This document shows positions 5,155 to 21,800 of a stretch of DNA of 33,224 nucleotides, in pieces. The position numbers and the translations under genes were made by a program. The DNA comes from Fidelibacterota bacterium (GTDB taxonomy: Bacteria > Fidelibacterota > UBA8477 > JABMPR01), in NCBI GenBank assembly GCA_018650795.1, contig JABIFG010000209.1, positions 1 through 33,224 of the forward strand, written 5' to 3'. Positions within the stretch are counted from its first letter, which is position 1; every line of letters begins with the position of its first letter. The notes below the pieces were generated by a model. The model had not been told where the DNA came from. It worked only from the letters and a program-made list of their open reading frames with translations, and searched no databases.

Positions 5155-6006
5155 ATGGAGTGGGTTTTATCCGTACGTGCTGAATGGCTAACGCCAATTA
5201 TGAAAATTTTCACTTTTCTCGGTGATGAAGAATTTTTCCTCCTGTTTCTGCCTCTGGCTTACTGGTTTTGGAGAAAACAGGTCATGGGTCGTGTCGGCAT
5301 GGTCTTGCTATTCACTTTTGTGCTGAACGCCGTAATTAAAGGTATTTTTCAGGTTCCCAGACCTGAGGTCATTGAGCATCTCGTGCATGCTGATGACTGG
5401 TCTTTTCCAAGTGGACATTCTCAGGGAGCTATGGTGTTGTGGGGTTGGTTGGCCTATGAACTCAAGGACAAACGCGCTTACATGATCGCCGCTGTTCTCA
5501 TCGCTGGAGTGGGCTTCTCGAGGGTCTATCTCGGTGTACATTACCCGACAGATGTTTTGGGTGGTTTCCTCATTGGCTTTTTAACCTTATACGCTTATTC
5601 CTGCTTGTTAAAACTTACACCTCCGGGCTGGCTTTATCTCGGTCCCACCCGTCAGAGCTTAATCATTTTTGTACTACTTATGGGGCTGTTTATGTTAGTT
5701 CCTGAACTGTCTGAGGTTGCCATCAAAGGTGGTGCAGCATTTATCGGTTTTTTAGCAGGCTATCTCCACGAGAAGAAATATCTATCCTGCAGTCTCAAAC
5801 CGGGTATGAATCTGGTCATTTCCAAACTTGTTCTCGGGATGGTGGGCATCATTGTGATCTGGATGGGTCTGAAACAGATCTTTATTTCCATCGGGTATAC
5901 AACAGATATGGCCATGTTTATTCGCTATACTCTCCTGGGTGGCTGGATAAGCTTTGGAGCACCCTATCTCTTCTGTCAATTCGGTTGGAATCTGGAGAAT
6001 AAATAA
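5155..6006 (+). CDS. PAP2-superfamily membrane phosphatase
   Basis: A 283-residue integral membrane phosphatase with the complete three-part PAP2 active site: K62-x6-R69-P70 (KGIFQVPRP), PSGH at 85-88, and SR-x5-H-x3-D at 122-133 (SRVYLGVHYPTD). Family members dephosphorylate lipid phosphates such as phosphatidate, phosphatidylglycerophosphate or undecaprenyl diphosphate; the substrate cannot be chosen from sequence. The core is followed by roughly four more hydrophobic segments (about 140-280), making the protein longer than minimal PgpB-type enzymes. The start ATG has an excellent Shine-Dalgarno sequence, AGGAGG, and a promoter lies upstream at 5052-5081. It is most likely a single-gene transcript. 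Confidence 0.85.
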   Translation: MEWVLSVRAEWLTPIMKIFTFLGDEEFFLLFLPLAYWFWRKQVMGRVGMVLLFTFVLNAVIKGIFQVPRPEVIEHLVHADDWSFPSGHSQGAMVLWGWLAYELKDKRAYMIAAVLIAGVGFSRVYLGVHYPTDVLGGFLIGFLTLYAYSCLLKLTPPGWLYLGPTRQSLIIFVLLMGLFMLVPELSEVAIKGGAAFIGFLAGYLHEKKYLSCSLKPGMNLVISKLVLGMVGIIVIWMGLKQIFISIGYTTDMAMFIRYTLLGGWISFGAPYLFCQFGWNLENK

Positions 6007-6188
6007 CTCCGAGACAAACAAACACATTCCGGTGAAATACATCACTTATTCGTAAGAAGTAAAAACTTGCCATGAACTGTCTTGGATGGACACCGGTAAC
6101 GGGTTATTATCATGGTCCAATGACTAAGTGCGCAACATTTCTTATAAACAAATCAATTTACAATCTGGGACTAAAAAGGACTTTTTCT

Positions 6189-8783
6189 ATGAAAGCTTTA
6201 AATGTGTTTATCAGCCTGAGTCTGATGACCTCACTGGCCTTTGGGCAACTCTTTATTAACGAGATCGATTATGATCAGCCTGGTACTGATGCTGGAGAGT
6301 TTATCGAAATTGCCGGACCAGCTGGCACATATACTAACGTTAGTATAGATCACTATAATGGAAATGGCGGGGCCCTGATCTGGAGTCTGGATCTGCCAGC
6401 CTTTACTCTAACTGATGAGGCTTCTGGTTATGGATTTTATGTCATAGGTGTTACCGCTGTTCCAAATGTTGATTTATCTATACCGGGGTCCATCCAGAAT
6501 GGTGCTCCAGATGGTGTTGAGCTTTTGGTAAATGGTAGCGTTGTTGATGCCATTGCCTATGAGGGTGAAATGAATGATAGTGAAGGCAATGCTATGGAAA
6601 GTGCCACCGGTGATTTTGCCGGTGTAGATTCCTCCATGGGCCGAATCGGTATTGATGGATCACCCTGGGAATATGGCCCTTTTTCTCCCGGGGCATTAAA
6701 TACAAATCAAACTTTTGACCCAACCGTAAACTATCCACCATCTGCCAATGCCGGTGCGGATCAATCTGTTGCCAGTGGTGCTACAGTAACACTTGATGGT
6801 TCAGCTAGCTCTGATGCCGATGGAACGATTGTTTCCTACCTCTGGGAACAGACTTCAGGATCTACGGTGACCTTGACCGATGCTACTACAGATGTGGCCA
6901 CTTTTGTAGTGCCAGAGGTGACAGAAACGACCTCCTGGGGATTTTCTCTGACAGTAACTGACGATGAGGCTGCTACAGACACTGACGACATTGTGATAAC
7001 AGTCAGTATTAGCGCAGCCATGACTATCCTGGAGGCTCGTGGACAGGCATTAGGGACCCTGATTACAATTACTGGTCTGGTAAACAGTGTAAACTTTTCT
7101 GGTGGTGGCTCTGAATATACGGTAGAAGACGCCACCGCAGGTATCGATATGTATTTAGGTGGTGTTCCTATTGATCTCGGATTGGGCGATGAGATTACTG
7201 TGACAGGAACGACTGCCGAATATAATGGAAAATATGAAATCCTACCAGCTACTGCTGGTGATATCGTAGTCAATAGCACGGGTAACACCCTTCCAGACCC
7301 ACAGGTGATCACTGCTGCTGAATTAGCAAGTAATGGCGAGAACTACGAAAGTGAACTTGTAATGATCCTTGCTGTCAGTAATGCAGGTACGGGTGATGCG
7401 TGGCCAGCATCAGGATCAGATGCAAATATTGATATTTCTGATGCTTCCGGAACCACCGTTATGCGTATCGACAAAGAAACTGAGATAGATGGCTCTACAG
7501 AACCTGTCTGGCCAGTGGATGTGATTGGTGTCGTTTCCGAGTATAGTGGCACTTATAATATTTATCCTCGGTTACTATCTGATTTTGCTTCAAACACGGT
7601 AACACCAACTTTTTCAAACGAGACCCATTCACCAGAATTTGCAACTTCAGTCAATGAAATCACCGTAACTATTGATATTGTAGCTGGTGATGAGACTCAG
7701 ACTATCAATTCAGCCGCACTTATGTATGGAACGGGTGGAACCCATTTGAATGAATCTGAAATGTGGCTGGATAATGGCAGTACCTGGATGGGGATTATAC
7801 CTGCCCAGGCAGCCAATTCTTTCCTTGAGTATGAAATAATTGCAACAGCCTTCACCACCTACGATACAGTTATTGACACCAGTGAATTTGACTCATGGAC
7901 CTACCTATTGGCCATTGCCTCATCCGAAGTCGCTACCATCGCCTCAATTCAGGCTAATCCGGTTGAGGAAGAAGTAGTTACCGTCGAAGGTGTCATTACA
8001 ATTGGTTCAGGTTTGCTTAGAGACGATTATACTGCAGCCTATATCCAGGATGAATCAGGACGGGGGATCAATCTTTTTCAGTATGACCAGGTTGAATTAA
8101 ACCGTGGAGATGAAATCACAGTTGTGGGTGTCATCGATATTTACAATGGTACGGTTGAGATCACAGATTTCTCATACCAGCTTATTTCAACTGGAAATAC
8201 ACTTCCTGCTCCTGTGGTGCTAACTCCTGGTGAAGCTAATGAACTTGAATTTGAAGGCACCTGGCTCAAAATCACGGGAACTGTCACAGATACCTGGTCA
8301 GCAGGTGGTGGTCAAAACGTTCTGATTGGTGATGGATCTGATACCTGTGTTGTTCGTATCTGGGAAACCACTGGTGTGGATGTTACACCACTTACCGTTG
8401 GCACAGAATGGTCATTCCTTGGTGTAGAAAGTCAGTATAATGGTGTTTTTCAACTATTAGTAGCTTATGATGCTGATATCATGAGTACCAGTGACATTGA
8501 TGTCATCGATACCAAACCTTCACAATTTGGCTTGAATCCAGCTTATCCGAATCCTTTCAATCCCAGCACAACTCTGAGTTGGAAGCTGGAATCCTCTTCA
8601 GAAGTGATGTTACGAGTCATGGATATTCGAGGTCGGGAAGTGGCTAGATTGGCTGAAGGAACAAGTGGACCTGGCCAGTTTTCCATGTCATGGGATGCCT
8701 CAGAGTTGAGTTCAGGTGTTTATTTCATTCAGTTGATTACACCAAATGAATCCGCTATTCAAAAGGTCATGCTGCTGAAATAG
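6189..8783 (+). CDS. secreted multidomain LTD-PKD-OB-module protein with type IX-like C-terminal sorting domain
   Basis: An 864-residue secreted protein. The start is ATG 6189, because a signal peptide begins there (MKALNVFISL through AFG, cleavage before Q20) behind an AAAAGGAC ribosome site; an open frame reaching back to 6072 lacks signal-peptide character. Domains in order: lamin-tail-like beta-sandwich (21-175, LFINEIDYD and GVELLVNGS); PKD domain (183-273, ANAGADQSV and LDGSASSDADG); two OB-fold-like modules (278-466); a beta-sandwich linker (473-575); two more OB-fold-like modules (578-765); C-terminal sorting domain (780-864, YPNPFNPSTTLSW and SSGVYFIQL) of the kind recognised by type IX secretion. 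Such OB modules and lamin-tail domains often accompany extracellular nucleases, but no nuclease motif is present here. A terminator follows directly. Confidence 0.8.
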   Translation: MKALNVFISLSLMTSLAFGQLFINEIDYDQPGTDAGEFIEIAGPAGTYTNVSIDHYNGNGGALIWSLDLPAFTLTDEASGYGFYVIGVTAVPNVDLSIPGSIQNGAPDGVELLVNGSVVDAIAYEGEMNDSEGNAMESATGDFAGVDSSMGRIGIDGSPWEYGPFSPGALNTNQTFDPTVNYPPSANAGADQSVASGATVTLDGSASSDADGTIVSYLWEQTSGSTVTLTDATTDVATFVVPEVTETTSWGFSLTVTDDEAATDTDDIVITVSISAAMTILEARGQALGTLITITGLVNSVNFSGGGSEYTVEDATAGIDMYLGGVPIDLGLGDEITVTGTTAEYNGKYEILPATAGDIVVNSTGNTLPDPQVITAAELASNGENYESELVMILAVSNAGTGDAWPASGSDANIDISDASGTTVMRIDKETEIDGSTEPVWPVDVIGVVSEYSGTYNIYPRLLSDFASNTVTPTFSNETHSPEFATSVNEITVTIDIVAGDETQTINSAALMYGTGGTHLNESEMWLDNGSTWMGIIPAQAANSFLEYEIIATAFTTYDTVIDTSEFDSWTYLLAIASSEVATIASIQANPVEEEVVTVEGVITIGSGLLRDDYTAAYIQDESGRGINLFQYDQVELNRGDEITVVGVIDIYNGTVEITDFSYQLISTGNTLPAPVVLTPGEANELEFEGTWLKITGTVTDTWSAGGGQNVLIGDGSDTCVVRIWETTGVDVTPLTVGTEWSFLGVESQYNGVFQLLVAYDADIMSTSDIDVIDTKPSQFGLNPAYPNPFNPSTTLSWKLESSSEVMLRVMDIRGREVARLAEGTSGPGQFSMSWDASELSSGVYFIQLITPNESAIQKVMLLK

Positions 8784-8799
8784 TTTTATTGAAATTCGC

Positions 8800-8826
8800 A
8801 AAAGGCGTCCTTATTGGGCGCCTTTT
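8800..8826 (+). terminator. Rho-independent terminator
   Basis: An 11-bp stem (AAAAGGCGTCC paired with GGGCGCCTTTT, one G-U pair) with the 5-nt loop TTATT. The 3' arm ends in a T-run. It begins 17 nt after the LTD/PKD gene stop, separating that gene from the six-gene run that starts at 8880. Confidence 0.9.
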
Positions 8827-8879
8827 GTATCTATAGTGTTGTTTAATGATTTTGTATACGATGAAACAGAAGTGAGAGA

Positions 8880-10862
8880 ATGAAGAGACAAATAATTCAA
8901 AGCGTATTTATCCTGCTCATGCCCTATCTGGCGATGGCATCAGATCATCTCCTGATCAATGAGGTTGTACTCCAACCCTCAGCAGGTGAATACATATTGA
9001 TCACCAATCCCACTGCCGCTGCCATCAATCTCAGTGATTACTACTTGACAGATGGTACAGATAAGGTGAATGGAAAATATTACTATAACTTGCCCAGTGG
9101 TACTGACTATTGGTCAAGTAGCTCGACTGATTTTATTGCCAGATTTCCTGATACAACTATTTCAGCTGGTGGCTCTTTGATCTTGAGTATGGCTCGAAAT
9201 AGTGACTATGAAACGACCTATGGCTCCAGCCCAAATCTTTCACTTAAAGATCATATGCTGGATGCAGTTGACGGTACATCTACGATAGGTGGCTCTCCCA
9301 ATGTCAAATTAGATAATACTGCCGAATCCCTGATACTTTTCCATTGGGATGGCACTTCAACTACTGTTGAAGATGTAGAATATCTGATTTGGGGAACAGA
9401 TAGTACCACAGCATCAGCTTATACATTGGATAAAAGTCTGGTGGCAGGCTACGCCGCTGACACACCAGTAGAGCATCAAAGTTTTATGACTACCCATCTC
9501 GATGGGTCTAAGCTGATCAGGAATGGTGAAGAGGGGACAGAAACCACTTCAAGTGGCAATGGGATCACCGGTCATGATGAGACCAGTGAAAACCTGGCTG
9601 AGACCTGGTCCGTGGTTGATCTGACCATTGTCAAGCCTGCGATAAGCAATATCAGCGCAACACCCTCAGATCCTGAGACCACAGAAGATGTAGTTATTTC
9701 TGCCGATGTCACTGATGATGCCGGCATAAGTTCAGTTACACTGACATATACCTTCCCAGCAGATACAGGCACACCTGTTGACCTTGCCATGGCATCCTCA
9801 GGTAATGACAGCTACAGCGCTACGATACCAGCCACCAATGCAGAGGGTACTCTCGCTTATTACATCACTGCTGAGAACACCTCAGGCCTATCAGAAACGA
9901 GTTCTATTGGAGGGGTTGCCATTGCAGATCCACCTCCACCGGTGACGATTCAAACCATCCGTGAAAATTTTAATAGTTACTCTGGAACCATAGTGAATTT
10001 AAATGTGGTTGTTGCCATCGGTTCGGGGATTACTCGAACGGACCGAACCGAAGCCTATGTCCAGGATGAATCTGGTTATGGTATTGTGCTATCGGCTACG
10101 GGACTAATGAATCCTGCCTTGGTTCAGGGTGACTCCATCAATCTCGTTGGTGAGGTGTCTGAGTATAATGGGACCAAACAAATCATCAATTTTTCAAGCA
10201 CCCAGCTTGCCACAGGTAGACCTGTGCCGGGTATTAGAACTATTACCAGTGCTGAACTTGCCTCTGACTCAAATCAGGGCAGTTTTGTAAGGGTCTGGGG
10301 TGCTGTCCAATCCAGAAGTGATGGTGTAGGCGGTGGATCCAATATAGGCCTGGAAGATGCCGATGGATTGCTTACCATAAGAATTTGGGACACCACACAT
10401 TTACTGGACGATTTAACTGCCGATAGCTTGCTTCAAGTGGGCAACCTGGTTCAAGTCGATGGTGTTGCTAGTGAATACAATGGTGATGGACAGCTTCTGG
10501 CTGCTTATGCCAGTGACATACAAGCATATAAGGAAGGGGAAGATAGTGATGGTGGCACCAGTCTTTCAGTTGCTCCATATCCCTTTGTACCTCAATTGGC
10601 TGAAAAAATACAATACACTTATAAATTTCCCTCGAATTCACGAGTGACGCTCAGGATTTTCGATATGTCCGGGCACATTGTAACCACACTTTTCGAAGAC
10701 TATCGCAGCCTCTCATTGGAGGTAACTAAAACCTGGAATGGTCGTAATGAAATCTATCAGGTTGTGGCTCCAGGAACTTATGTCATGCATTTGGAAACAG
10801 TCAACCGCTCCACCGGCGAGATTTTGACAGATATGGCTCCCGTAGTCATCGGGAGTAAATAA
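8880..10862 (+). CDS. secreted LTD / OB-module protein with FlgD-like C-terminal domain
   Basis: A 660-residue exported protein with signal peptide 1-20 (cleavage near AMA-S). Residues 22-250 form a lamin-tail-like domain (LLINEVVLQP, AGEYILITNP, closing with ETWSVVD). Residues 253-350 resemble an Ig/FN3-like sandwich (PAISNISATPSDP). Residues 355-550 hold two OB-fold-like modules with phrases shared with the previous gene: AYVQDESGYGI here against AYIQDESGRGI there, and SEYNGTKQI against DIYNGTVEI. Residues 565-660 are a FlgD-like Ig fold (RVTLRIFDMSGHIV, VVAPGTYVMHLE) that may act as a type IX-like sorting domain. It contains no catalytic motif. It is the first of six genes with gaps of 1, 9, 0, -4 and 16 nt. 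A surface-located binding protein is the most I can infer. Confidence 0.75.
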   Translation: MKRQIIQSVFILLMPYLAMASDHLLINEVVLQPSAGEYILITNPTAAAINLSDYYLTDGTDKVNGKYYYNLPSGTDYWSSSSTDFIARFPDTTISAGGSLILSMARNSDYETTYGSSPNLSLKDHMLDAVDGTSTIGGSPNVKLDNTAESLILFHWDGTSTTVEDVEYLIWGTDSTTASAYTLDKSLVAGYAADTPVEHQSFMTTHLDGSKLIRNGEEGTETTSSGNGITGHDETSENLAETWSVVDLTIVKPAISNISATPSDPETTEDVVISADVTDDAGISSVTLTYTFPADTGTPVDLAMASSGNDSYSATIPATNAEGTLAYYITAENTSGLSETSSIGGVAIADPPPPVTIQTIRENFNSYSGTIVNLNVVVAIGSGITRTDRTEAYVQDESGYGIVLSATGLMNPALVQGDSINLVGEVSEYNGTKQIINFSSTQLATGRPVPGIRTITSAELASDSNQGSFVRVWGAVQSRSDGVGGGSNIGLEDADGLLTIRIWDTTHLLDDLTADSLLQVGNLVQVDGVASEYNGDGQLLAAYASDIQAYKEGEDSDGGTSLSVAPYPFVPQLAEKIQYTYKFPSNSRVTLRIFDMSGHIVTTLFEDYRSLSLEVTKTWNGRNEIYQVVAPGTYVMHLETVNRSTGEILTDMAPVVIGSK

Positions 10863-10863
10863 T

Positions 10864-11775
10864 ATGAAGAATGTAAATATGCTTCGCGCCATCATGTTTA
10901 GTGTGTTGGTTGGTCTGTCATATGGACAGGTAACTACGGATACACCATATAAATCAGCCGCCATGGGTGCGCTCATGGGGAGTAATATCGCGTATTCTGT
11001 TGATGGAAGCAGTCTCCTGCTCAATCCTGCATCCATTGGGAATATTGAGAATGGAACGGTTCTGGCCAGTACGCAACGCATCTACAATCAGTCCTATTTA
11101 CCCCACAGTATCCTGGCGACTGTCCTTGACCTGCCCAGTGGCCTGGGGAAGCTTGGATTAAGCTTTGAATCCATGTCTGTCTCCTACCAGGATCGCACCC
11201 TCAGCGGTGAAACAGCTTTGGGCTTGTCTCATGCCTTTAACCTGCGTGAAGACCGGATATCAAGTTTGAATATGGGTTATACACTCAAATATCTATCCAT
11301 TGATTATGGCCAATCTGCTGGTGTAACTGGGGATGGTTCTGATGGTATGGATCTGGGAAGTGCCACGGCTTTTGCAGTCGATCTGGGCTTTCAAGCGACG
11401 CTTTCAAAAAGACACTGGCTTGGTGTGGTTGCACACAATATCAATCGTCCTATGATCGGTACAGGAAGTGCAGCATTTAACCTGCATCGTGACATTCAGG
11501 CTGGTTTTTCCTACGCACCAACCCAACAGGTTGTAACCAGCTTTATGCTGGTGAGTAGCCCAGGTTTTGATACTGAATTGCATGCGGGTCTGGAGTATGG
11601 TCTGAATACCTTTTTCACATTACGTGCCGGTATTCAATCACAACCCAACCGCTTTGGGACGGGCTTCAGTTTCAAGGCTAAAGGAATCGCTTTGGATTAT
11701 GCACTTCTAACCCATCCGGTCCTCCCTGCGACGCATCAACTATCGCTGGCTTATGACTTTGTAGATCCCTTCTAG
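10864..11775 (+). CDS. PorV/PorQ-family outer-membrane barrel protein
   Basis: A 303-residue protein with signal peptide 1-21 (cleavage before Q22). After the signal it has the family-typical segment MGALMGSNIAYSVDGSSLLL ending in NPASIGN, the NPA motif shared by PorV, PorQ and FadL-like barrels, followed by regularly alternating strands to the C-terminus (SLAYDFVDPF). In Bacteroidota, PorV and PorQ work with the type IX secretion system as shuttle or attachment proteins for cargo bearing C-terminal sorting domains. The neighbouring secreted LTD proteins carry such domains, which fits a cargo-partner role. It starts one base after the upstream stop, so translation is probably coupled. The exact subfamily cannot be fixed by eye. 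Confidence 0.65.
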   Translation: MKNVNMLRAIMFSVLVGLSYGQVTTDTPYKSAAMGALMGSNIAYSVDGSSLLLNPASIGNIENGTVLASTQRIYNQSYLPHSILATVLDLPSGLGKLGLSFESMSVSYQDRTLSGETALGLSHAFNLREDRISSLNMGYTLKYLSIDYGQSAGVTGDGSDGMDLGSATAFAVDLGFQATLSKRHWLGVVAHNINRPMIGTGSAAFNLHRDIQAGFSYAPTQQVVTSFMLVSSPGFDTELHAGLEYGLNTFFTLRAGIQSQPNRFGTGFSFKAKGIALDYALLTHPVLPATHQLSLAYDFVDPF

Positions 11776-11784
11776 AGCTTAGAA

Positions 11785-14298
11785 ATGATTAGACAAATAT
11801 CAATGATATTCAAAAGGGTAGGGCATATAGCCATCATCAGTGTATTTATGCTGACGCTGGCCTGGGCAAACCCTGTGGATGTCAATAATGCCTCGCTCTC
11901 AGAGTTACAAGATTTGCCCCTCACTGAAGACCAAATGCAGGCGGTTTATGAGTATGTGCAATACCATGGTCCGCTTGAGAGCATCTATGAACTGGTGAAT
12001 ATCTCCGAACTAGAGCACGTCGATATAGAAGCCTTAAAACCACAACTCGTGCTGAAACCAGATGAAAACGCTTCAACCAATACTCGTCTTCAAGATCAAT
12101 ACCGGAAAGTAGAGGATTGGACATCTACAGAAGGCGCTAGTGAAGGATTGATGGAACTCTGGCTGGAACGTCTGGCTGAACCCATCAATGTGAACACAGC
12201 CACCTATGATGACTTGGTATCCTTCCAGAATGTCAGTCAGATTGATGCAGTGGCAGTTCTAAAACTACGTACGGAAGTTGACTCAATTGGATCAGCCAGA
12301 TGGCTCAGAAACGCCATCGGACTCTCATATTATGGCTACCGTAATTTGCGTGAATTCGTGACCTATAGTGAACCAGAAGGTGGACAAATGCACGTCTGGT
12401 ATAACATGGTGATGAAATCCATTCCTACGACCAATTCTGAGGAAGAGGCTGTTGGAACAACACTACTACTCTTGAATCTGGCGGATTCGGAGCTCCTTGA
12501 TAATCCGGCTTCAAGACCAGATATTCTTCACAAACTGTCTTTTACTAATTCCCGCCACTGGAAAGCAGGTATATCCTACAATCGGCACCTGGGCGAATCC
12601 CATCGCTATTTTGACGGTGGTGATATTCCAGAAGTGAAGCTATCATTTACTGTTTCTGATTACAATTTGGGACCACTGCATCTGGATCGTCTTGTTCTGG
12701 GCAACTATTCTGCTACGATTGCTCAGGGACTGGTGATGCAGTCTACAGATTTCAGGTCACCTCGCTATTCCGGCTATGGTTGGAACAAGCGTGTTCATGG
12801 TATTTTTTCAGATCTCAGTAGAACTCAAGAGTATGCACTGAAGGGTGCTGGTATCCAGGGCTCCCTATTTAACAGGGTTAAGCTCATGGCCTTCGCATCA
12901 AAAAATGATCGGGATGCAATACTCAATACGGATGGTGAATCATTCACCTCGTTGATCACAATGTATCCAAGGGCTGACTGGGACTACTTTGTGCAAGACA
13001 CTCTGGATATGCTGAATGCTGTAGAGGAAGTGACCTATGGTGGAAATCTTCGTTATGAATTCACTCCAGGAACTTTTGTGGGTTTTTCCAGCTATGAAAG
13101 TCTATATGACAAGGAATTGCGACCAGATCCACTCCTTACACTGATACTTCCTGCAAACACAGGATTGTTTCTGAATTCCTCTGGAAATGGTGCTGATACA
13201 GAAGTCGCTGCCATGCATGCTTCATCAGCAGCATCTTCACTATGGGATGCGGCCAAATCTAATCGGCGTGTACAGGGACTTGAGTTCAGCACCGTTATAA
13301 GCAATCTGGCGTTACAACTTGAATGGGCTGTCCTGGATAAGGATAGTGAGATACTATCCATTAAAAATGATCCAAGAGCGCTGGTTGCAAATGCATATCT
13401 CCAATTCGACAATTTTAATTTCATGGTGCTATATCGTGACTATGACCTGGGATTTGACAATCCCTATCAGCGTAGCTTTTCAAATTATCAACGCTACAAG
13501 AGCAGTATTTTTGAAGACTACTACTATTTGAAAAACCCTGCATTTTCGTATCTATATGCAGGTGCATCACAGCCTCAAGCTGAGCAGGGTGTCTATGTCA
13601 GTAGTCGCTATCAAATGCATCGTGCCTGGGTTTTGACGACAAATTTCGATACCTGGAAACGGGTAGCTGATGGATCGAGATATTTCCGCACAGTTGCAAC
13701 ACTCGAATATCGACCCACCTTTAACTATCGCTTCCGAGTGCGGCAAAAATGGCAGGCCCGTGGTAGATTCAATATCTTTGCCCCAACTGGTTATGAAAAC
13801 CGGGAAACCATTTTTACAGCCAGGATGAGACTTTCTGGTTTTGATCAACTGCAGGTTACATACGCGAACTCTGGAACTCAGTTTGATCCACGCCGACGAT
13901 TGACCATCGATCTAGCGACCGGAGCAAATAATAGCTCTGCAGTTGGACAGGCATATAGTCCTGGAAATGCCCTGGGCTTCACTGTAACACACAATTTTAC
14001 CGAAAGCTTCAAACTCATCGGCCATATAGCCTACTATAAGGGCTTTTTCTGGAGTTTTGAAGACACCGATTTCCAGGTTTTTGATTCTCCCAATGGAGCG
14101 ATCCGCTGGTATCTGACCGCCTTTTCCCGTTTGGGAAATCACTGGGCAGTACGAGCCAAGCTCACCTGGGATGAGGGATCTGCTATTTCCAATTATGCCT
14201 TTGGTGCACCTTCAGCTTCCTCAAGATCACCTCAGACAGGCATAAATTATTTTACTGAATCTACTGATTTCCGAATTCAATTGGATTACGCTTTCTAG
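11785..14298 (+). CDS. outer-membrane barrel protein with two N-terminal ComEA-like helix-hairpin-helix motifs
   Basis: An 837-residue exported protein. A signal peptide (about 1-29, ending LAWA-N) is followed by two helix-hairpin-helix units: NPVDVNNASLSELQDLP (29-45) with its second helix to about 72, and EPINVNTATYDDLVSFQ (132-148) with its partner to about 195. The VNxA(S/T) opening is the ComEA signature; in ComEA this fold binds double-stranded DNA without sequence preference. Residues about 200-837 are rich in aromatic, alternating strands and end in TDFRIQLDYAF, as expected for a large outer-membrane barrel. It sits 9 nt after the PorV-like gene and abuts the FadL-like gene. DNA binding at the periplasmic or surface face of the outer membrane is an inference; structural use of HhH units is the alternative. 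ATG 11803 (M7) is another possible start. Confidence 0.7.
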   Translation: MIRQISMIFKRVGHIAIISVFMLTLAWANPVDVNNASLSELQDLPLTEDQMQAVYEYVQYHGPLESIYELVNISELEHVDIEALKPQLVLKPDENASTNTRLQDQYRKVEDWTSTEGASEGLMELWLERLAEPINVNTATYDDLVSFQNVSQIDAVAVLKLRTEVDSIGSARWLRNAIGLSYYGYRNLREFVTYSEPEGGQMHVWYNMVMKSIPTTNSEEEAVGTTLLLLNLADSELLDNPASRPDILHKLSFTNSRHWKAGISYNRHLGESHRYFDGGDIPEVKLSFTVSDYNLGPLHLDRLVLGNYSATIAQGLVMQSTDFRSPRYSGYGWNKRVHGIFSDLSRTQEYALKGAGIQGSLFNRVKLMAFASKNDRDAILNTDGESFTSLITMYPRADWDYFVQDTLDMLNAVEEVTYGGNLRYEFTPGTFVGFSSYESLYDKELRPDPLLTLILPANTGLFLNSSGNGADTEVAAMHASSAASSLWDAAKSNRRVQGLEFSTVISNLALQLEWAVLDKDSEILSIKNDPRALVANAYLQFDNFNFMVLYRDYDLGFDNPYQRSFSNYQRYKSSIFEDYYYLKNPAFSYLYAGASQPQAEQGVYVSSRYQMHRAWVLTTNFDTWKRVADGSRYFRTVATLEYRPTFNYRFRVRQKWQARGRFNIFAPTGYENRETIFTARMRLSGFDQLQVTYANSGTQFDPRRRLTIDLATGANNSSAVGQAYSPGNALGFTVTHNFTESFKLIGHIAYYKGFFWSFEDTDFQVFDSPNGAIRWYLTAFSRLGNHWAVRAKLTWDEGSAISNYAFGAPSASSRSPQTGINYFTESTDFRIQLDYAF

Positions 14299-15681
14299 GT
14301 GATGAATATGACAAATATACATAAAATGAATGATAAGAAGACCTCCATGGACACTATGAGACCTACCAGAATTTTCAGCATGCTTATGCTGTTATTATTA
14401 AGCTCTTCGCTTTTTGCTCAGAGCTATTTTAATCCACTCCTCATGAATCAATTGGGTTTGTCCCATAGTCGAGATGTAGCCTTATCAGGCGCAAATACCT
14501 CTGACTATAGTACAGCCATGAATACTTTCAGCAATCCTGCCAATCAGGCTGGGTTTGTTGGTCTCAATCTGAGTGGCTCATTTGGTGCTATTGCAACCAA
14601 TGAGAACCGCTCCTTTCCTGCTATTGATCAATTTGGAGATGTGGTTACCAATAACATCTATGTGGTTTCTAAGGGTCTGCAAAACACCTTTTCTGGAGGA
14701 GCAACCTGGGGTAAAGGGCAGCTGGCTATCTCTCTGGCTTCAGTGCCCTTTCTGACTCCAACTTTTACCTTTAAAGAAGAGATCAGAGGTAGCCTTTACT
14801 CACCAAATATCAACCGAGATCCTCTCATAGGCTATCACCATTTAAATCAGTCCGGTGTGATTCAAGCGACTGGAGCCAGCGTTGGAACTGCCTTTGGCTC
14901 CTGGTCAGTTGGTCTAGGAATGCGAATGCTCCATGGCATTGGCCTGGAAAATGAATATGGCATATCAGTCTTGGATAGTGCGGATGTTTCTGCCCTGGCA
15001 GCCGCCTCGAATCTACTAAAAACCGAGAACTGGGAGTTGGACAATACTCCACTCATCATCAATATGGGAGTAATCAAGGATTTTGGTTTGCACTGGAGAA
15101 TTAGCGCGAGCTATCAAACGGCATATTCAATCGAGTCCATACGTCAGGGTGCTAACCCCCTTTACGATCCCACACTGGACTTGCCGAGTTTGGAATGGTT
15201 GTCTGATTCTCTTGGTACAACGGTCAATATTCCTGCCCGGCTGGAGCTTGGTTTGAGGATGAAACCTTCTAACAGCTTGCCAACAGCCGTTTATTTGTCG
15301 TTGGCTTATCAGGACTGGACCCAATATGAGGTAAGCTATGACGATTCACTTTTGGAGGTTGACTCCCCATTTGATTATCCCATGCAGGAAGCCTTCACTT
15401 TAAGTGGCGGTATAGAACATTGGGTGAACGAAAATGTCCCTTTTAGAGCTGGTTTTAGCTGGGCTGAATCTCCTCTGGACAGTGAACTCTCTCAAGCAGT
15501 TCTCAGCGGTGGCTCCGGTTGGAAAAGTGGACCGCTGCAATTTGATGTGGCAGTACAACTTTCTTCTGTAGGGTATAGGTATTATGATATTTTTGTCCCT
15601 GTAGAAATGTCACCCAATACTTATGAAAATGTTCGGGAATCCAAAACCAACTATTCAATCTCTGTGAGTTATAGTCTGTGA
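14299..15681 (+). CDS. FadL/OmpP1-like outer-membrane transport protein
   Basis: A 460-residue exported barrel protein. The N-terminal region holds SRDVALSGANTSDYS and FSNPANQAGF, the NPA motif typical of FadL/OmpP1-type barrels, and the rest is a series of amphipathic strands ending in NYSISVSYSL. FadL-like proteins pass hydrophobic or small aromatic compounds across the outer membrane; no substrate can be named. The start is uncertain: GTG 14299 directly abuts the previous stop, ATG 14302 follows, and ATG 14347 or 14356 would give a more normal signal peptide (basic R near TRIFSMLMLLLL, cleavage at FAQ). I keep the longest form. Its stop overlaps the next gene's GTG start in a GTGA, implying coupled translation. 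Confidence 0.65.
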   Translation: MMNMTNIHKMNDKKTSMDTMRPTRIFSMLMLLLLSSSLFAQSYFNPLLMNQLGLSHSRDVALSGANTSDYSTAMNTFSNPANQAGFVGLNLSGSFGAIATNENRSFPAIDQFGDVVTNNIYVVSKGLQNTFSGGATWGKGQLAISLASVPFLTPTFTFKEEIRGSLYSPNINRDPLIGYHHLNQSGVIQATGASVGTAFGSWSVGLGMRMLHGIGLENEYGISVLDSADVSALAAASNLLKTENWELDNTPLIINMGVIKDFGLHWRISASYQTAYSIESIRQGANPLYDPTLDLPSLEWLSDSLGTTVNIPARLELGLRMKPSNSLPTAVYLSLAYQDWTQYEVSYDDSLLEVDSPFDYPMQEAFTLSGGIEHWVNENVPFRAGFSWAESPLDSELSQAVLSGGSGWKSGPLQFDVAVQLSSVGYRYYDIFVPVEMSPNTYENVRESKTNYSISVSYSL

Positions 15682-17639
15682 AAAAACTTCCCATACTGGG
15701 CTTCTTCTTTGTAGCAATAATTCTGGTGCTTGTAATGCCAGATTTTGTGGATGCCCAGACATCAACATACAATAAAAAATTCGATTCTCCAGAATATCTC
15801 AAGATTCACCTACTCTTCACCAACGATCTGCATGGGGGAATTGCACCTTCCAAAGCCTGGTTTATGAATCCCGAATTTCCGCCTGATCTCGGCGGTGGCG
15901 CTGCCATGTTCACCTATGTGAAGGAAATTCGTCAGGCAGCAGCAGCCGAAGGAGCTGAAGTACTCTTGCTTGATGGAGGCAATATTTTCCAGGGTACTCC
16001 CCTTGGGATGGCGGATTCAGGTCGCGTCATGGTTGACTGGATGAATGAGATGGAATATGATGCATCTGTTATAGGATTGCAGGAATTCATGTTTGGGATG
16101 GGAAACATTTCTAAGCTGAACGAAAGAGCCCATTTCCCTTTGCTTGGTGCGAATTTGAAGAGTGACCTCTATTCACCTCAGGAAAATCTTGTTAAAACAT
16201 TTCAGGGCGTCAAGCTAGGGATATTCGGATTATCTACCGCCAATACACCTAGAAAGCTCTTACCAGGGCAAACGGCAGGTGTAGAATTCGGCCAAGAAAT
16301 TATTACAGCCAGAGAGCAAATCAAGGTGCTCAAGGATCAAGGTGCTAATTGCATCATCGGTCTGTCTCACCTCGGCGTACCCTATCAGCGTGAAGATGAA
16401 TTTGCTGAATTTGTTGATACCTATGAAGATGAGAGCGATTTCAGTGACAGAGTAATTACTAATCTGGAATTAGCTTATCTGGTTGACGGTATTGATCTGA
16501 TTGTCTCAGGTGGAACCAATGCAGGCTACAACACTCCCTGGGAGGATCCCCAGACACATACTCTGATTGTCCAGGGTTATGGTGGCGCCAGCAATATTGG
16601 GCATATCGTACTTTATATACATCGTGAGACGGGAACACTGGCAGGCTATAAACAACCCTTCTCCAGAGGCGTATTATTTACTCTGAGTACCGATGATGTT
16701 CGTCCAGATCTTGACATGGCTAAACAACTATCCGAGCTTGAGAAAACCAGAAGCTTTGCAGGGAAACGCGATTTTAGCAAGGCTCAAAATAGCCCGGTAT
16801 CAGGTGAGTCTACCCAACTAAATAGATGGCAATATGAGGTACCTAGTTTCGATAGGGAGAACTACCTAGATGTAGCTACCTGGAATATGGAGTGGTTCCC
16901 AAAATCCAATGATAGTACAATTACGGCAGTGGCTGAAATTATGCAAAAAATTAACGCAGATGTTTACGCCGTTCAGGAGATCGGAAGTCTTGAGCAATTT
17001 GCAATCATGATGGAGCTTTTACCGGCTTATGATTTTCAAGTCACCCGACAGTCCAGCTTTTTTGATCAGGCTGTTATTTACAAGAAGAGTGTGCTGGCCT
17101 ATGTGGGTCGTGAAGAACCTTTTGCACATTCAGATTATAACTTTGCTGGTCGTCCTCCCTTGCGAGTAGATTTTGTCTGGACAGTTGATGGGCAAAGAAC
17201 GCCTGTTTCGATTATCGACCTGCACTTAAAATGTTGTGGAAATGGTCTTGAAAGGCGTAAAAAATCAGTCGCAGAACTACATGAATATTTGAGTCTGGGT
17301 ATGGAAATGGGTGAAGAAAACATCATTGTCCTGGGAGACTGGAATGATCAACTGGATGATGTCGGCGTTACCCAGAGTTTTACAGCTTTTCTCGATGATC
17401 CTGAAAATTTCAGATTTGCCACGGATCGTATTGCTGGAGATGTGGAACAGGCATCTTATCCAAGCTGGCCCAGCTTTCTTGATCACATTCTGATCGGGAA
17501 GGGCTTTTTTGATGAATTTGAAAATGGTAGCACTATTCAGACCTTGCCGGTGACTGAATGGCTGGGTAGTTGGGAAGAATATGAACTGATTATTTCTGAT
17601 CATCGCCCCGTATTAATGCAGCTCAATATGACCCAATAA
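15678..17639 (+). CDS. exported fusion: degenerate 5'-nucleotidase-like domain plus intact EEP nuclease/phosphatase domain
   Basis: A 653-residue protein with signal peptide 1-26. Residues 41-345 follow the UshA-type metallophosphatase fold: FTNDLHGG (D50, H52), LLLDGGNIFQGTPLG, VIGLQEFMFG, IIGLSHLG (H231), LIVSGGTNAG. Several metal ligands of the family are replaced: GD becomes GN at 102, GNHEFD becomes GLQEFM at 133-138, and GGHSHT becomes GGTNAG at 278-283. The usual 5'-nucleotidase C-terminal domain is missing and an EEP domain takes its place (about 396-650). That domain is complete: WNMEW (N403), QE (E434), DLHLK (D514, H516), GDWND (D554, N556), LDH (602-603), SDHRP (D641, H642). The EEP half should therefore be the active part, as nuclease or phosphodiesterase, and the N-terminal half a probable pseudoenzyme. 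Its GTG start overlaps the upstream stop. Confidence 0.8.
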   Translation: MKKLPILGFFFVAIILVLVMPDFVDAQTSTYNKKFDSPEYLKIHLLFTNDLHGGIAPSKAWFMNPEFPPDLGGGAAMFTYVKEIRQAAAAEGAEVLLLDGGNIFQGTPLGMADSGRVMVDWMNEMEYDASVIGLQEFMFGMGNISKLNERAHFPLLGANLKSDLYSPQENLVKTFQGVKLGIFGLSTANTPRKLLPGQTAGVEFGQEIITAREQIKVLKDQGANCIIGLSHLGVPYQREDEFAEFVDTYEDESDFSDRVITNLELAYLVDGIDLIVSGGTNAGYNTPWEDPQTHTLIVQGYGGASNIGHIVLYIHRETGTLAGYKQPFSRGVLFTLSTDDVRPDLDMAKQLSELEKTRSFAGKRDFSKAQNSPVSGESTQLNRWQYEVPSFDRENYLDVATWNMEWFPKSNDSTITAVAEIMQKINADVYAVQEIGSLEQFAIMMELLPAYDFQVTRQSSFFDQAVIYKKSVLAYVGREEPFAHSDYNFAGRPPLRVDFVWTVDGQRTPVSIIDLHLKCCGNGLERRKKSVAELHEYLSLGMEMGEENIIVLGDWNDQLDDVGVTQSFTAFLDDPENFRFATDRIAGDVEQASYPSWPSFLDHILIGKGFFDEFENGSTIQTLPVTEWLGSWEEYELIISDHRPVLMQLNMTQ

Positions 17640-17655
17640 GACAGTCTTAACTTTA

Positions 17656-18555
17656 GTGCCAGGATTCAGTTCCATCAAGCTCCCCATTTTTCTTCTGATA
17701 GCCCTAATGATAGGCTGTGCAGAACCTGTAGAATCAGACTTACCAACGGGACCACAGATTCCTTCAATTGATAGTGATGCAAACATCAGCATTGTCACCT
17801 GGAATATTGAAAATTTTCCTCAGCAAGGGGCTCGCACCACAGCTAGAGTTGAACTCATCATGGATTCTCTGGATGCTGATATTTACTGCTTGCAGGAGAT
17901 TCAAGATAAGGCTGCTTTGGAGAATATTGTTGATCAACTCGATCAATACTCTGTGATCATCTCTGATGAGACCTCCTTTATGCATCTGGCTATCGTTTAC
18001 AAGCAAGACTCATTCCTACCCATATTCACAGAAAATATATTCGCCAGCGATGATTACAATTTTGCCAGCCGCCCACCCCTTTTAGTCACCTTCCTCTATG
18101 AATATGGCGGTCATGAACAAACACTCAATATCATCGATGTCCATATGAAATGTTGCAATGATGGTGTGGAACGTCGCCATCAGGCCTCGAGTATGCTCAA
18201 TGAGTATCTAAGCAGTAAAATGGCCTGGGGAGATAGCAATTTTGTGATTCCAGGTGATTGGAACGATGATATCTATGACGCCGACAATTCAGGACAATAC
18301 AGCTTTGAAGCATTCCTAAATGATGGTGATAACTTCCGTTTTGCCACAGATAGCCTTGCAGCGACAGGGGCTGCCAGGGATGCATCCTATCCCAGTTATG
18401 GTAGTTTTATAGACAATATTTTAATCAGTCGGTCACTCTTTGATGAAGAGAAACACTCCACCGTTGCCACGATTCGCCTGGATGAGGTCTTTGGTGATTA
18501 CAGTTCAGTCATATCCGACCACCGACCTGTTGTTTGGTCGTTTAAGCCCCAGTAA
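17656..18555 (+). CDS. lipoprotein EEP-family nuclease/phosphodiesterase
   Basis: A 299-residue protein starting at GTG 17656. The N-terminus has a hydrophobic segment followed by MIGC, a plausible lipobox with lipidated C21, so it should be membrane-anchored. The rest is one EEP domain with every catalytic landmark: WNIENFP (N50), LQE (E81), IIDVHMK (D161, H163), GDWND (D201, N203), FIDNILI (D253) and ISDHRPV (D288, H289). It is clearly a paralogue of the EEP half of the preceding gene; both share KCCxxGxERR, NFRFATD and ASYPS segments. EEP enzymes hydrolyse DNA, RNA, sugar or lipid phosphodiesters or phosphoesters; the neighbourhood makes a nuclease the leading guess. It is the last gene of the plus-strand run, 16 nt after the previous stop. 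Confidence 0.8.
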   Translation: MPGFSSIKLPIFLLIALMIGCAEPVESDLPTGPQIPSIDSDANISIVTWNIENFPQQGARTTARVELIMDSLDADIYCLQEIQDKAALENIVDQLDQYSVIISDETSFMHLAIVYKQDSFLPIFTENIFASDDYNFASRPPLLVTFLYEYGGHEQTLNIIDVHMKCCNDGVERRHQASSMLNEYLSSKMAWGDSNFVIPGDWNDDIYDADNSGQYSFEAFLNDGDNFRFATDSLAATGAARDASYPSYGSFIDNILISRSLFDEEKHSTVATIRLDEVFGDYSSVISDHRPVVWSFKPQ

Positions 18556-18642
18556 AATTAAATAATTAGATCGTCTGCTAGCCTGCCCTACCGAAGTTCA
18601 AACGTAGGCTGGAGGTTCTCGGAGGCTAATTAACCTGCTATC

Positions 18643-18711
18643 CTTCGAGTCCGTCCTACGGACTCCCTCAGGAAGACAATCATCATTATTGTCTCACTGA
18701 GGTTCTCGAAG
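18643..18711. repeat. nested inverted-repeat (REP/MITE-like) element between convergent genes
   Basis: Three nested arm pairs close one structure: CTTCGAG (18643-18649) with CTCGAAG (18705-18711); CCTCAG (18666-18671) with CTGAGG (18697-18702); AGACAAT (18674-18680) with ATTGTCT (18688-18694). A side hairpin, GAGTCCG-TCCTA-CGGACTC (18647-18665), shares bases with the outer arm. GAGGTTCTCG occurs both here (18699-18708) and just upstream (18612-18621). It lies in the 247-nt gap between a plus-strand and a minus-strand gene end, which is typical for repetitive extragenic palindromes; it may also work as a bidirectional terminator, though no T-run follows. No coding potential was seen in the gap. 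Confidence 0.7.
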
Positions 18712-18802
18712 TGTGACGTATGCGGGCTAAAAAATCCCCCCCATATCGTGGGTTCTGCTTGGAAACAACTTTTTGGTAATCTACGTATAACACAATATGA
18801 CC

Positions 18803-21800
18803 CTAATCATCAAAATTGGGATGGATGGGAAATTCGATGATAAAATGGGCACCCCCGGTGTCTTTCAAATTGACTGATCCCATGAGCTGATGCTCAGACA
18901 AAATTTTGATTAGATATAAACCGAGAGAATGGATTGAATCCCAGACCACGGGTTTTTGTAGGCCAATCCCATTATCGATGACTTCGAGGCGTAGACAATC
19001 AGGCTCATATTCAGTAAATCGAATGATGATTTGTTTGTCTGGTTTGTCAAGGTCGGGGAAAGCATACTTCAAAGAATTGGTCACCATTTCGTTAATCATT
19101 AATCCACAAGGTACAGCTATATCCACGGGCAAATTGATTTCTGGAATCTGTGTTTTGATCTCAATGGGTACAGCATGCTGCCCAAAGGCTGCGTGAAGAG
19201 TGTCTGTCAGATCCTGGATATATGAGGATATGTCTACATTATCAAATTCAGGTGATCTATAGAGTGCATCATGAACCAGTGCCATTGAGTTGACTCTATT
19301 TTTTATATCATCAAGAGTTTGAAGTGTCTTATCATTTTCCGTCCCCGCTTTTTGCAAGCCCAGCAAACTGGCCACAAGTTGCAGGTTATTTTTTACGCGA
19401 TGATGCACTTCTTTAAGCAGCAAGTCCTTTTCGAGAATTGATTTCTCCAAAAGATTCCGCTGACGAGCAATTTCTGTTACATCCTCCAGAGACACCATGA
19501 CCTGATTCGTCATCCCGACAATATTTTTGAGAGGATAAAGGAGCATATGAACAACCCTGGTGTTCCCATTATCAGTAATGAATTTAACCTCGGGGATTTC
19601 GATGATGTTTCCCTCTACTGCCTTCCTGAAACTTTTGCCCAGGGATAACTGGTTTGCCTGTTTATCCTCCTCCACATGATAATCCCTAATAATATCCTCG
19701 GGACTATCAGCCCCCCAAAGTTTTACCCAGCCTGAATTAAGATGAGTAATATTACCTTCAGAGTTGTGAATGGCCATTGGAATGGGGGATTGAGAAATTA
19801 CTGCATGGAAATAATTGGCTCTTTCACTGGCTTTTACGTGGGCCTTGCGACGAGATTCTATTTGGGCATTGAGCTGGATGTTGTGCATTTCAAGCTCCTT
19901 ACCTCGATTTACCAGAAAATTTGTACGGAAACGATAACTTATGAAGCCAATCAGGATGACTAGTAAAACACTGCTGGAAATAAACCACCATGTTTCATAG
20001 AACTCTGGGTGCATTATAATTTTAAGAGAGGGTCCATTATTATTCCAGACCTGATCATTATTGCTGCCCTTGAGATGGAAATTGTATTTTCCAGGTGGCA
20101 GATTTGTAAAAGTAACACTACGTTGATGACCCAACTGTCGCCACTGTTTGTCAAAACCTTCCATGTAATAGGCGTAGCTGTTGCTACGCGGATGGTAATA
20201 ATCCAGACTGGCAAAGCTCAAGCTAAAGAACAGATCATCCGGGTACAATTCCAGTACTGGGGTGGTCGTGATCGACTTCTCTAAGATGACTCGATCTTTA
20301 ATTTGTTGTTGGATACCGACGGGAACATTCATGATCGATAAACCTGTGAATTTTACAGGCGGGATACTGCGGTTATCCTTAATTTGATCAGGGTGAAAGT
20401 ACGTGATACCTTTTACTCCGCCAAAATATATCCAACCATTGTCCAGCTGACAGCCAGCAGGATTGAACTCTTTGCTGAGAACTCCGTCTGAAATACCATA
20501 AGCTTTGATTATTCTCTTTTTGGGATGGTACTTGGCTAAACCGGAATTGGTACTCATCCAAAGAGCACCATGATCATCCTGAAAGATGGCGTAGATAGCA
20601 CTACTCGGTAATCCATCTTCTGTAGAAAAATTCTGAAAAGAACCATTGCGGGGGTCAAAACGACTTAACCCACCACCATATGTTCCCAGCCAGATATAGC
20701 CATCTCCATCCTCATAGAAACACATCACATCATTATTGGCTAAAGCCAGGGGGTCTCCTGGAGAGGCTTTAAATTGTTTCAGAGTCATCGTTTTGCGATC
20801 GAATCCGATCAAACCTTCATTCTCAGCTCCGATCCAGATGGTTCCACGCGAATCTTCAAACATGACATAGAATGATATATTACCGAGATTTATATCACCG
20901 ATGGAAGGGGTTCGAAAGACCTCAAATTCGAGTTTGGATGGGTTGAGGCGGAAGAGTCCTTCATCCCAACTCCCCAGCCAGATGGACCCTTCTTTGTCCT
21001 CAAACATGGTAAGCAAATACTGGCTTTGCAATCCTTTTGGGTCATCAAGGTCAGCTTTGATGTGGATAAATGTATCAGAATCACTTCTCAGCAAATCGAG
21101 ATTGGTGCTGGCAGAAATAACCCAGAGATTGTCATTTTGATCCACAATAATATCCTGAAGACCATCATCACTGAGACTTCCAGGATCATTCGGATTATGC
21201 TGATATTTTTTAAAGGCTTTAGTCTCCGGATTGAAATAGGTTAGACCTGATGTCCAGGTAGCTATCCAGAGGTTGCCCTTACTGTCATTGACGATTTTTA
21301 GTATGCGATTGTCATGCAATCCATCAGAGTCCAGAGGATCATAACTCAGGCTGTGAAATTTTTTACGATGGGGCATATATTTGCCGACACCACCACCTGC
21401 GGTTCCAACCCAGACAATATCACCATCATTGTAGAATGATCGAATTGCATCATCGTTCAAGGCAGTATCATCATATACTTTCTTACCAATAGTCTCCAGC
21501 AGGTTTCCCTCTAGATCTAAAATCAAGATACCTTGCGATTCAGTGCCAACCCACAGACGATCATTGCCAATCTGAACCATGCGACTCACACCGGTTTCCA
21601 GATAATCAGGATTGATCGTTGATTTATATCCGTGATGAGTAAAGCTGTCGGTTTCAGGATCATAGCTATCCAGGCCACCCCAATTCGTACCAACCCAGAT
21701 CCGATAATGTTCACCATCAAAAGTTTCGTAAACAGAATTAACATTATCGTCAAAAAGCGAGGATGGTTCATCTTTGTCATAACGATAGGTTCTAAGAGCG

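Follow-up and report, generated by a model that had tools for sequence, protein, structure and literature searches.

ExeM is an extracellular DNase that combines an LTD domain with two OB regions and a nuclease domain of the EEP type, and in the available text of its description the OB region and the EEP domain are required; it is with this domain set that ExeM/NucH proteins act on extracellular DNA (PMC6085458). In Riemerella anatipestifer the genes essential for natural transformation include, as far as the accessible part of that report goes, RS04920, RS04915 and RS02645, which encode a DUF5689 protein, an adjoining predicted outer-membrane barrel and an HhH protein (PMC8459023). In type IX secretion, according to the excerpt available, FadL-family barrels go together with a secreted partner, as with sprF beside sprB, and a role in anchoring the T9SS cargo has been proposed for those of the PorP-like kind (PMC9143113). 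Further likenesses of the present locus are to UshA and ecto-5'-nucleotidase, in a nucleotidase domain pair, and to ComEA, in HHH_3 motifs. To our knowledge, nucleic-acid passage across the outer membrane in bacteria of the kind described here is a largely open matter. Deep-ocean waters, where DNA provides phosphorus, commonly harbour Neomarinimicrobiota, and a two-phylum gene unit with an HhH-barrel family is a concrete candidate for such passage. The gene set is a fixed run for predicted surface and outer-membrane proteins, an unusual channel-like one among them, in two little-studied groups, and no description of it was found in the literature searched, in line with the earlier note, which knew of no characterised system with this set; ExeM and the Riemerella transformation genes came nearest.

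Layout and conservation of the gene run

In the window, i.e. the whole stretch of 33,224 nucleotides that was analysed, six genes on the plus strand run from 8880 to 18555 (open reading frames 8880-10862, 10864-11775, 11785-14298, 14299-15681, 15678-17639 and 17656-18555) with intergenic gaps of 1, 9, 0, -4 and 16 nt, and these coordinates bear out the arrangement first described, including the second LTD/OB gene, LTD1, that lies upstream (open reading frame 6072-8783, with the export signal beginning at an internal Met at 6189). A terminator said to separate this gene from the run is plausible: a hairpin with a 9-bp stem and an 11-nt loop does lie between LTD1 and LTD2 (8799..8827, plus strand), and the qualification is due because it was spotted by eye, was not listed by a terminator scan with a loop limit of 8, and belongs to a region (5900-19000) without an excess of terminators (11 found against a shuffle mean of 10.3). 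A PAP2 phosphatase gene is found upstream of the cassette in the window's group. Scored by a simple script rather than a signal-peptide predictor, hydrophobic N-terminal stretches occur in 40/47 LTD1, 53/63 LTD2, 62/67 PorV-like, 66/71 HhH-barrel, 67/69 FadL-like, 60/61 NucEEP and 27/27 EEP2 proteins. No RNA element matched Rfam at gathering scores.

The order LTD1, LTD2, PorV-like barrel, HhH-barrel, FadL-like barrel, phosphoesterase recurs in Neomarinimicrobiota and Calditrichota, and the HhH-barrel was found in 70 of 199 sampled genomes of the former and 34 of 40 of the latter. The 71 loci compared comprise the window, 10 loci from a one-sequence scan of genome contigs, which returned these two phyla only, 40 Neomarinimicrobiota stretches hand-picked for family spread and contig size from the 70 barrel-positive genomes (39 genomes, G161 being used twice) and 20 Calditrichota loci hand-picked from the 34 positive genomes. 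Among them the PorV-like gene is the next or next-but-one open reading frame upstream of the HhH-barrel in all 67 informative loci, and the FadL-like gene lies downstream in 70 of 71. Across the 199 genomes, HhH-barrel and LTD2 occur together in 63, singly in 7 and 4 and not at all in 125 (phi 0.88), where the LTD2 profile also matches LTD1 so that, for a small number of its 67 genomes, the match may be a partial one. The set is accordingly conserved as a unit in two phyla, and an artefact of genes that are neighbours in this genome only is rejected by an order kept across 71 loci; the fixed order and the joint presence of HhH-barrel and LTD2 also speak for the surface complex proposed below. 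A role in anti-phage defence (no PADLOC match for the 7 proteins at E 0.001) and an origin from mobile elements or phages (no match of the HhH-barrel among plasmids, phages or viral contigs, and none in PHROG for either of two proteins scanned) were likewise rejected.

Predicted secreted proteins and barrels

LTD1 (6189..8783, plus strand) is by its domain models a secreted LTD/PKD/DUF5689 (OB-like) protein with a T9SS type-A tail. PKD (3.8e-18), DUF5689 (4.5e-7, over cut-off) and Por_Secre_tail (4.4e-12) match, the LTD domain reaches 21.1 bits (cut-off 34.3), and since the C-terminal sorting domain passes two cut-offs (46.6 bits against 27 and 42.9 bits against 23) the protein is a predicted type IX cargo. 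LTD2 (8880..10862, plus strand) is likewise described by domain models, as a secreted LTD/Ig-like/OB protein with a FlgD-like C-terminal module, which is under cut-off yet conserved; its LTD is over cut-off (1e-10), its OB fold is below (2.9e-5, 24.4 bits against 27), and so is its match to the T9SS tail model (E 0.0069, 16.3 bits against 23). The ExeM/NucH family model (NF033681, cut-off 300 bits) gives 27.7 bits for LTD1 (1.2e-6 over residues 352-432), 15.8 for LTD2 and 31.6 for EEP2. DUF5689 is over cut-off in LTD1 of the window, L078 and L137 and in the LTD1-like protein of L063, and not in L057. Among LTD1/LTD2 relatives the LTD and OB scores are frequently under cut-off, the LTD2 of L079 aligns poorly beyond the LTD, and in Calditrichota the assignment to LTD1 or LTD2 is uncertain where one large protein occurs.

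The PorV-like barrel (10864..11775, plus strand) is recognised by a PorV_fam match (9e-13), the family alignment and its conserved position, and the FadL-like barrel (14299..15681, plus strand) by a Toluene_X match (2.8e-6, 26.5 bits) that stays below the FadL/OMPP1 cut-off (PF03349, 29.7). Neither reaches the PorV/PorQ family cut-off (NF033709, 90 bits), with 48.5 bits for the PorV-like and 24.1 for the FadL-like protein. The earlier note had listed the two under separate names, and here it needs correction, as comparison of the family profiles shows them to be homologous (probability 98.5, E 3.1e-15). The FadL-like barrel may for this reason be a T9SS-type anchoring barrel and not a fatty-acid channel.

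Between them is encoded the HhH-barrel (11785..14298, plus strand), in which four N-terminal helix-hairpin-helix motifs (HHH_3 1.5e-11, in two stretches) precede a barrel whose outer-membrane fold is predicted from signs in the sequence; its C-terminal residue is F in 57/71 loci. PDB sequence searches gave matches confined to the HhH part (ComEA, and human EEPD1 at 2e-12 with a profile) and no solved relative of the barrel family beyond it. The hairpins of the four-HhH region (11869..12369, plus strand, residues about 29-195) are degenerate: the second glycine is found in 0, 2, 0 and 0 of 69 alignment rows at the four hairpins. This second glycine of GhG served as the criterion, because a GxG test proved too strict, the ComEA-like control of L100 also being without the first glycine; this separate protein of 156 aa keeps the second glycine in both motifs. 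The suggestion that the block binds DNA in the manner of ComEA is doubtful given the loss of that glycine in nearly all 69 rows, and we have rejected it as the default.

Phosphoesterases after the FadL-like gene

Domain models and residue counts divide NucEEP (15678..17639, plus strand) into a decayed UshA-type metallophosphatase domain (about 15783-16625) and an EEP nuclease-type domain (about 16875-17630, both plus strand). SoxB and UshA models match residues 31-236 (3.6e-21 and 7.7e-21) below their cut-offs, and EEP matches above its own (1.4e-11, 45 bits against 24.5). Of the residues that we take to have metal-binding or catalytic roles, 3/8 are kept in the metallophosphatase domain and 6/6 in the EEP domain, and 5_nucleotid_C is not listed, so that the window protein falls short of a UshA-type 5'-nucleotidase. 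A T9SS tail is absent from NucEEP, which may reside in the periplasm. EEP2 (17656..18555, plus strand) is a second EEP protein (4.8e-6, 26.9 bits against 24.5) and possibly a lipoprotein, with LMIGC near its N terminus and a lipobox-like pattern found by script in 11/27 relatives; both proteins thus score over the EEP superfamily cut-off (PF03372), the six residues having been counted in NucEEP only. In NCBIfam, EEP2 comes closest to the MnuA membrane nuclease (7.6e-8) and to ExeM/NucH (7.8e-8), scoring under the cut-off of each, and it has one weak PDB match.

The slot is filled differently in other loci. An alignment of 64 Nuc proteins holds 33 fusions of pseudo-UshA and EEP and 25 nucleotidase-type proteins, while five proteins with EEP only, and L076, which is truncated by its contig, belong to neither class; the script's classes for L076 (nucleotidase-type) and for the N-terminally short L140 ('EEP only') were changed by hand. 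The EEP residues are intact in 33/33 fusions. Among the nucleotidase-type relatives all 8/8 active-site residues are intact in 16/25, 5_nucleotid_C is present in the 5/5 scanned, and in 9/25, all from Calditrichota, the site has decayed in part or for the most part and no EEP replaces it. A HAD acid phosphatase takes the slot in 6 loci, and in L060 an Endonuclease I with a T9SS tail follows the cassette. The tree of barrels has a single change to the EEP fusion, at a support of only 69 and with 5/69 barrels without a Nuc state dropped and the state 'none' set by hand for L143-L149. The swap is instructive in that a dead nucleotidase domain has been retained beside a new nuclease-type domain. 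In one clade, L143-L149, 7/20 Calditrichota loci have no adjoining phosphoesterase gene; they keep the LTD/OB, PorV-like and HhH-barrel genes, with a separate FadL-like gene in 6/7, and the adjoining open reading frames that were scanned encode a histidine kinase, a DUF6090 protein, a GDSL lipase (beside the HhH-barrel in L146), housekeeping functions and weak nucleoside-deoxyribosyltransferase-like matches. On account of these loci the core cassette may carry something other than nucleic acid.

Proposed nucleic-acid scavenging and the systems it resembles

The reading that we favour, with a probability of a little over one half, is a scavenging complex at the cell surface, dependent on type IX export, in which nucleic acids are bound, cut and stripped of phosphate. 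It draws on the slot after the FadL-like gene, which is filled by several folds acting on nucleotides or nucleic acids, and on LTD, OB and EEP, which together form the domain set of ExeM. It also accords with the near-universal SprA and with the anchoring role proposed for PorP-like barrels. LTD1, and probably LTD2, would cross the outer membrane via the type IX system and be tethered outside the cell by PorV/FadL-family barrels of their own, DNA or RNA would bind to the OB folds of the LTD proteins, and the EEP enzymes would cut the chain or remove phosphate, a role that in relatives would fall to an intact UshA-type nucleotidase, an acid phosphatase or Endonuclease I. The HhH-barrel would form a hub or pore in the outer membrane by which products get to the periplasm, its HhH block being a plug or docking site instead of a ComEA-type DNA clamp, and nucleosides would then enter through ordinary transporters; a nucleoside transporter family is present in 177/199 genomes and does not discriminate. 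Against this reading it counts that the sequence does not by itself fix the substrate, that lipids too are cut by EEP domains, that seven Calditrichota loci have no adjoining phosphoesterase gene and nine nucleotidase-type proteins a decayed site with no EEP in its stead, that the HhH hairpins look unfit for standard DNA binding, and that LTD2 is under the T9SS tail cut-off and NucEEP has no such tail. The earlier interpretation is partly upheld: the recurrence of the set and the proposed surface binding and cutting of nucleic acid or phosphoesters have gained support, the latter from the slot enzymes and the ExeM domain set, and import and ComEA-type DNA binding have not. More tentatively, and with considerable doubt, the HhH-barrel might be the pore of an undescribed outer-membrane system by which members of the FCB group import fragments of DNA or RNA: T9SS-displayed OB proteins would load it, its four HhH motifs would gate it and interchangeable nucleases would trim the cargo; if so, transformation could draw on this route as well in hosts with ComEC.

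Scavenging of phosphate or carbon from other surface esters, such as phospholipids or nucleotide sugars, seems unlikely. Whether UshA-type, acid phosphatase or EEP, the fold is in each case that of a phosphoesterase, FadL-like barrels in other systems carry hydrophobic molecules, and both the upstream PAP2 phosphatase and the GDSL lipase of L146 would fit; the OB folds, the ExeM/NucH and MnuA matches of EEP2 and the Endonuclease I of L060 point however to nucleic acids, and homology links the FadL-like barrel to its PorV-like counterpart. It is improbable as well that the cassette is a specialised type IX attachment branch, in which the HhH-barrel and a pair of PorV/PorQ-like barrels would serve to expose the LTD proteins for adhesion or matrix formation and the phosphoesterases would be passengers. 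This would suit the T9SS tail of LTD1, the PorV/FadL-family pair, the seven loci lacking a phosphoesterase gene, the nearness of sprA, which in 6 genomes from three families is 10-16 kb away from the cassette, and SprA itself, which is nearly universal and therefore uninformative (matched in 194/199 genomes, 185 over its cut-off), but it leaves unexplained why one slot was refilled by unrelated nucleotide and nucleic-acid hydrolases.

Least probable, and weaker than scavenging, is a role in natural transformation, in which the cassette would take up DNA through the outer membrane much as the unusual machinery of Riemerella does, where ComEC, DprA, ComF and RecA follow. The DUF5689 matches and the HhH-barrel recall the Riemerella genes, and ComEC is present in the window's own genome and weakly associated with the barrel (54/70 barrel-positive genomes against 68/129 others, Fisher p 8e-4, uncorrected for relatedness). 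The phi of this association is however 0.24 as compared with 0.88 for LTD2, and ComEC was not found in 16/70 barrel-positive genomes, which sets the cassette apart from the Riemerella system and may in part reflect gaps in drafts, although four of the genomes, in two families, are at least 90% complete. The HhH glycines are furthermore lost, and another DNA route may exist since secretins occur in 38/40 relatives. In the accessible text on Riemerella, moreover, the HhH domain lies at residues 236-301 of its protein, unlike in the cassette, and the barrel has a carboxypeptidase-like domain, which the cassette barrel is without (PMC8459023).

The known systems differ from the cassette in several further respects. 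In Riemerella the HhH motifs and the barrel are on separate proteins, the HhH protein being encoded elsewhere in the genome to judge by its locus tag, and the same partial text reports no LTD, PorV-like or EEP partners (PMC8459023). With type IX cargo systems the cassette shares the T9SS tail on LTD1, yet it misses the PorV-family cut-off, and the excerpt available on those systems mentions neither an HhH-barrel nor phosphoesterases (PMC9143113). Relative to UshA, the window protein has its C-terminal domain replaced by EEP and its active site decayed; relative to ComEA, the cassette has a predicted barrel to which four motifs are joined, with the second hairpin glycine lost. Finally, ExeM/NucH, whose model cut-off the cassette proteins do not reach, is one polypeptide, whereas the cassette spreads the domains over T9SS-type and EEP proteins and adds three predicted outer-membrane barrels.

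Conservation of the cassette as a unit

The six genes and the intergenic gaps listed in the earlier note proved exact when the ORFs were checked, and a seventh gene, LTD1, lies upstream of the six with a hairpin in between. According to family scans of the window, LTD1 combines PKD and DUF5689 domains, a type IX secretion (T9SS) tail and a weak LTD match, LTD2 carries an LTD and a weak OB match, the PorV-like and FadL-like proteins are of barrel type, and an UshA-like domain is joined to an EEP domain in one protein. The HhH-barrel protein has HHH_3 in two stretches in these scans and four HhH motifs in alignment, and its long C-terminal region looks like a barrel. EEP2 is possibly a lipoprotein, a lipobox-like pattern occurring in 11 of 27 relatives. 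The window itself, contig C309, belongs to a draft genome of 4.42 Mb, and HhH-barrels 85-93% identical to its own are found on public contigs of Candidatus Neomarinimicrobiota.

The HhH-barrel cassette is a conserved unit. The barrel is present in 26 of 40 relatives, in 70 of 199 genomes sampled across the window's phylum and in 34 of 40 genomes of Calditrichota, to which G202 with its Calditrichaceae locus L029 belongs. Surroundings were inspected in 71 loci (the window, L021-L030, L057-L096 and L130-L149), not all from separate genomes since L059 and L060 are two cassettes of a single genome, G161. Wherever the contig reaches far enough (67/67), a PorV-like gene lies one or two ORFs upstream of the HhH-barrel; a FadL-like gene follows directly in 70/71, LTD2 occupies position -2 in 56/64 and a phosphoesterase position +2 in 52/68, with median gaps of -1 to 8 nt from LTD2 through the phosphoesterase. 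The LTD2 profile matches 67 of the same 199 genomes, and, kinship ignored, 63 have both genes, 7 the barrel only, 4 LTD2 only and 125 neither, some of the mismatches being fragments at contig ends. In the tree of barrels, one branch (SH-aLRT 100) sets all Calditrichota loci apart from the rest, as expected under long vertical inheritance.

The enzyme slot and its substrate

The 64 aligned phosphoesterases comprise 33 metallophosphatase/EEP fusions, 25 nucleotidase-type proteins, 5 EEP proteins alone and 1 fragment. None of the fusions keeps all eight metallophosphatase residues (range 0 to 4), and all 33 have the six EEP residues intact. The nucleotidase-type proteins contain 5_nucleotid_C in 5/5 scanned; all eight residues are intact in 16/25, from both phyla, and the nine with fewer, one of them at 6/8, are all from Calditrichota. 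Each of three states requires one change on the barrel tree: the EEP fusion (support 69), nucleotidase decay without fusion, and the missing enzyme gene of seven Calditrichota loci. The occurrence of the active form in both phyla is most simply explained if the ancestral nucleotidase was active and EEP took its place a single time, the dead domain being retained.

A HAD acid phosphatase follows FadL in six loci (direct Pfam matches for L078 and L082, BLAST clustering for the others), in four of which the fusion adjoins, and a secreted Endonuclease I of 1010 aa with a T9SS tail lies immediately downstream of one cassette (L060:12490-15519). The case for nucleic acids or nucleotides as substrate rests chiefly on different folds sharing a single substrate class. 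Against it stand L143-L149, where FadL or the barrel has next to it a histidine kinase (L147), DUF6090 (L148), a GDSL lipase (L146) or opposite-strand genes among which no nuclease match was found.

Barrels, type IX secretion and neighbouring genes

The PorV-like and FadL-like proteins are mutually homologous, and F is the last residue of the HhH-barrel in 57 of 71 loci, as is usual for outer-membrane proteins. In L146 the HhH-barrel ORF (8374-12045, minus strand) encodes 1224 aa and is followed by the GDSL lipase with no separate FadL-like gene, possibly representing a fusion with the FadL-like barrel. SprA, the T9SS translocon, is matched in 194/199 genomes, in 185 above cut-off, and the T9SS tail of LTD1 passes its cut-off in the window, L057 and L078 but falls short of it in L137. 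Picked by eye among the matches listed, at least six genomes of three families (G092:C137, G098:C36, G026:C41, G031:C4, G036:C1 and G055:C48) have sprA at a distance of 10-16 kb from the HhH-barrel, and G028 has it 33 kb away; the window's own genome has its best listed sprA match on a contig other than the window.

Facing the cassette, a minus-strand gene at 18803-22528 of the window encodes a sensor with Reg_prop, Y_Y_Y, PAS and HisKA_2 kinase domains that could regulate it; relatives occur on the same side in 10 further loci (L021-L028, L074 and L090). Upstream of LTD1 are a PAP2 phosphatase (5155-6006) and a 626-aa protein with zero Pfam matches (3044-4924), with relatives likewise placed in 8 and 7 further loci, respectively. 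In 14 loci a family of 265-aa proteins (L058:2573-3367 and relatives) is encoded downstream of the cassette and on its strand; the single member scanned has zero Pfam matches. A small 23S rRNA-intervening-sequence protein gene (L023:8557-8907; PF05635, 98 bits in L023, the locus scanned) is found between LTD2 and PorV-like in L023, L028, L029 and L074, in both phyla. The minus-strand sodium:solute symporter gene between FadL-like and phosphoesterase in L089 (4667-6760) encodes a possible uptake partner for nucleosides or phosphate.

Proposed function and relation to known systems

Bacterial LTDs are reportedly associated with hydrolases, as another paper cites Mans et al. 2004. On the favoured reading, the cassette products form a surface complex in which the OB folds would hold nucleic acid, EEP or the nucleotidase would cut it and the HhH-barrel would offer a passage for the cleavage products. 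The ComEA-like DNA binding that the earlier note assigned to the HhH block is poorly borne out, since among 69 aligned rows, the window's included, the second hairpin glycine occurs in 0, 2, 0 and 0 in the four motifs, the position being Ser, Thr or Asp in most rows. The first hairpin is furthermore one residue shorter than in the ComEA-like protein of the Calditrichota locus L100, which retains the second glycine in both motifs. Because these glycines are lost and D154 (69/69) and S181 in the GLSYYGY segment (68/69) are conserved instead, the HhH block probably has a structural or protein-binding role, although its profile is still similar to ComEA and human EEPD1.

The most interesting rival is that the cassette serves natural transformation, since transformation in Riemerella, as described in PMC8459023, requires a DUF5689 protein, an adjoining predicted barrel and an HhH protein. 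ComEC is indeed found in 54/70 barrel-positive genomes and is commoner there than in barrel-negative ones (54 with both, 16 barrel only, 68 ComEC only, 61 neither; kinship ignored), but there are lineages with the cassette and no detectable ComEC, secretins occur in 38/40 relatives and the HhH motifs are decayed, and we regard this function as rather unlikely.

No description of the gene set was found in searches of open-access papers, and among the papers listed DUF5689 was met only in PMC8459023. The parts of the cassette resemble known superfamilies, the barrel region excepted, and the gene combination and the HhH-barrel appear to be new.
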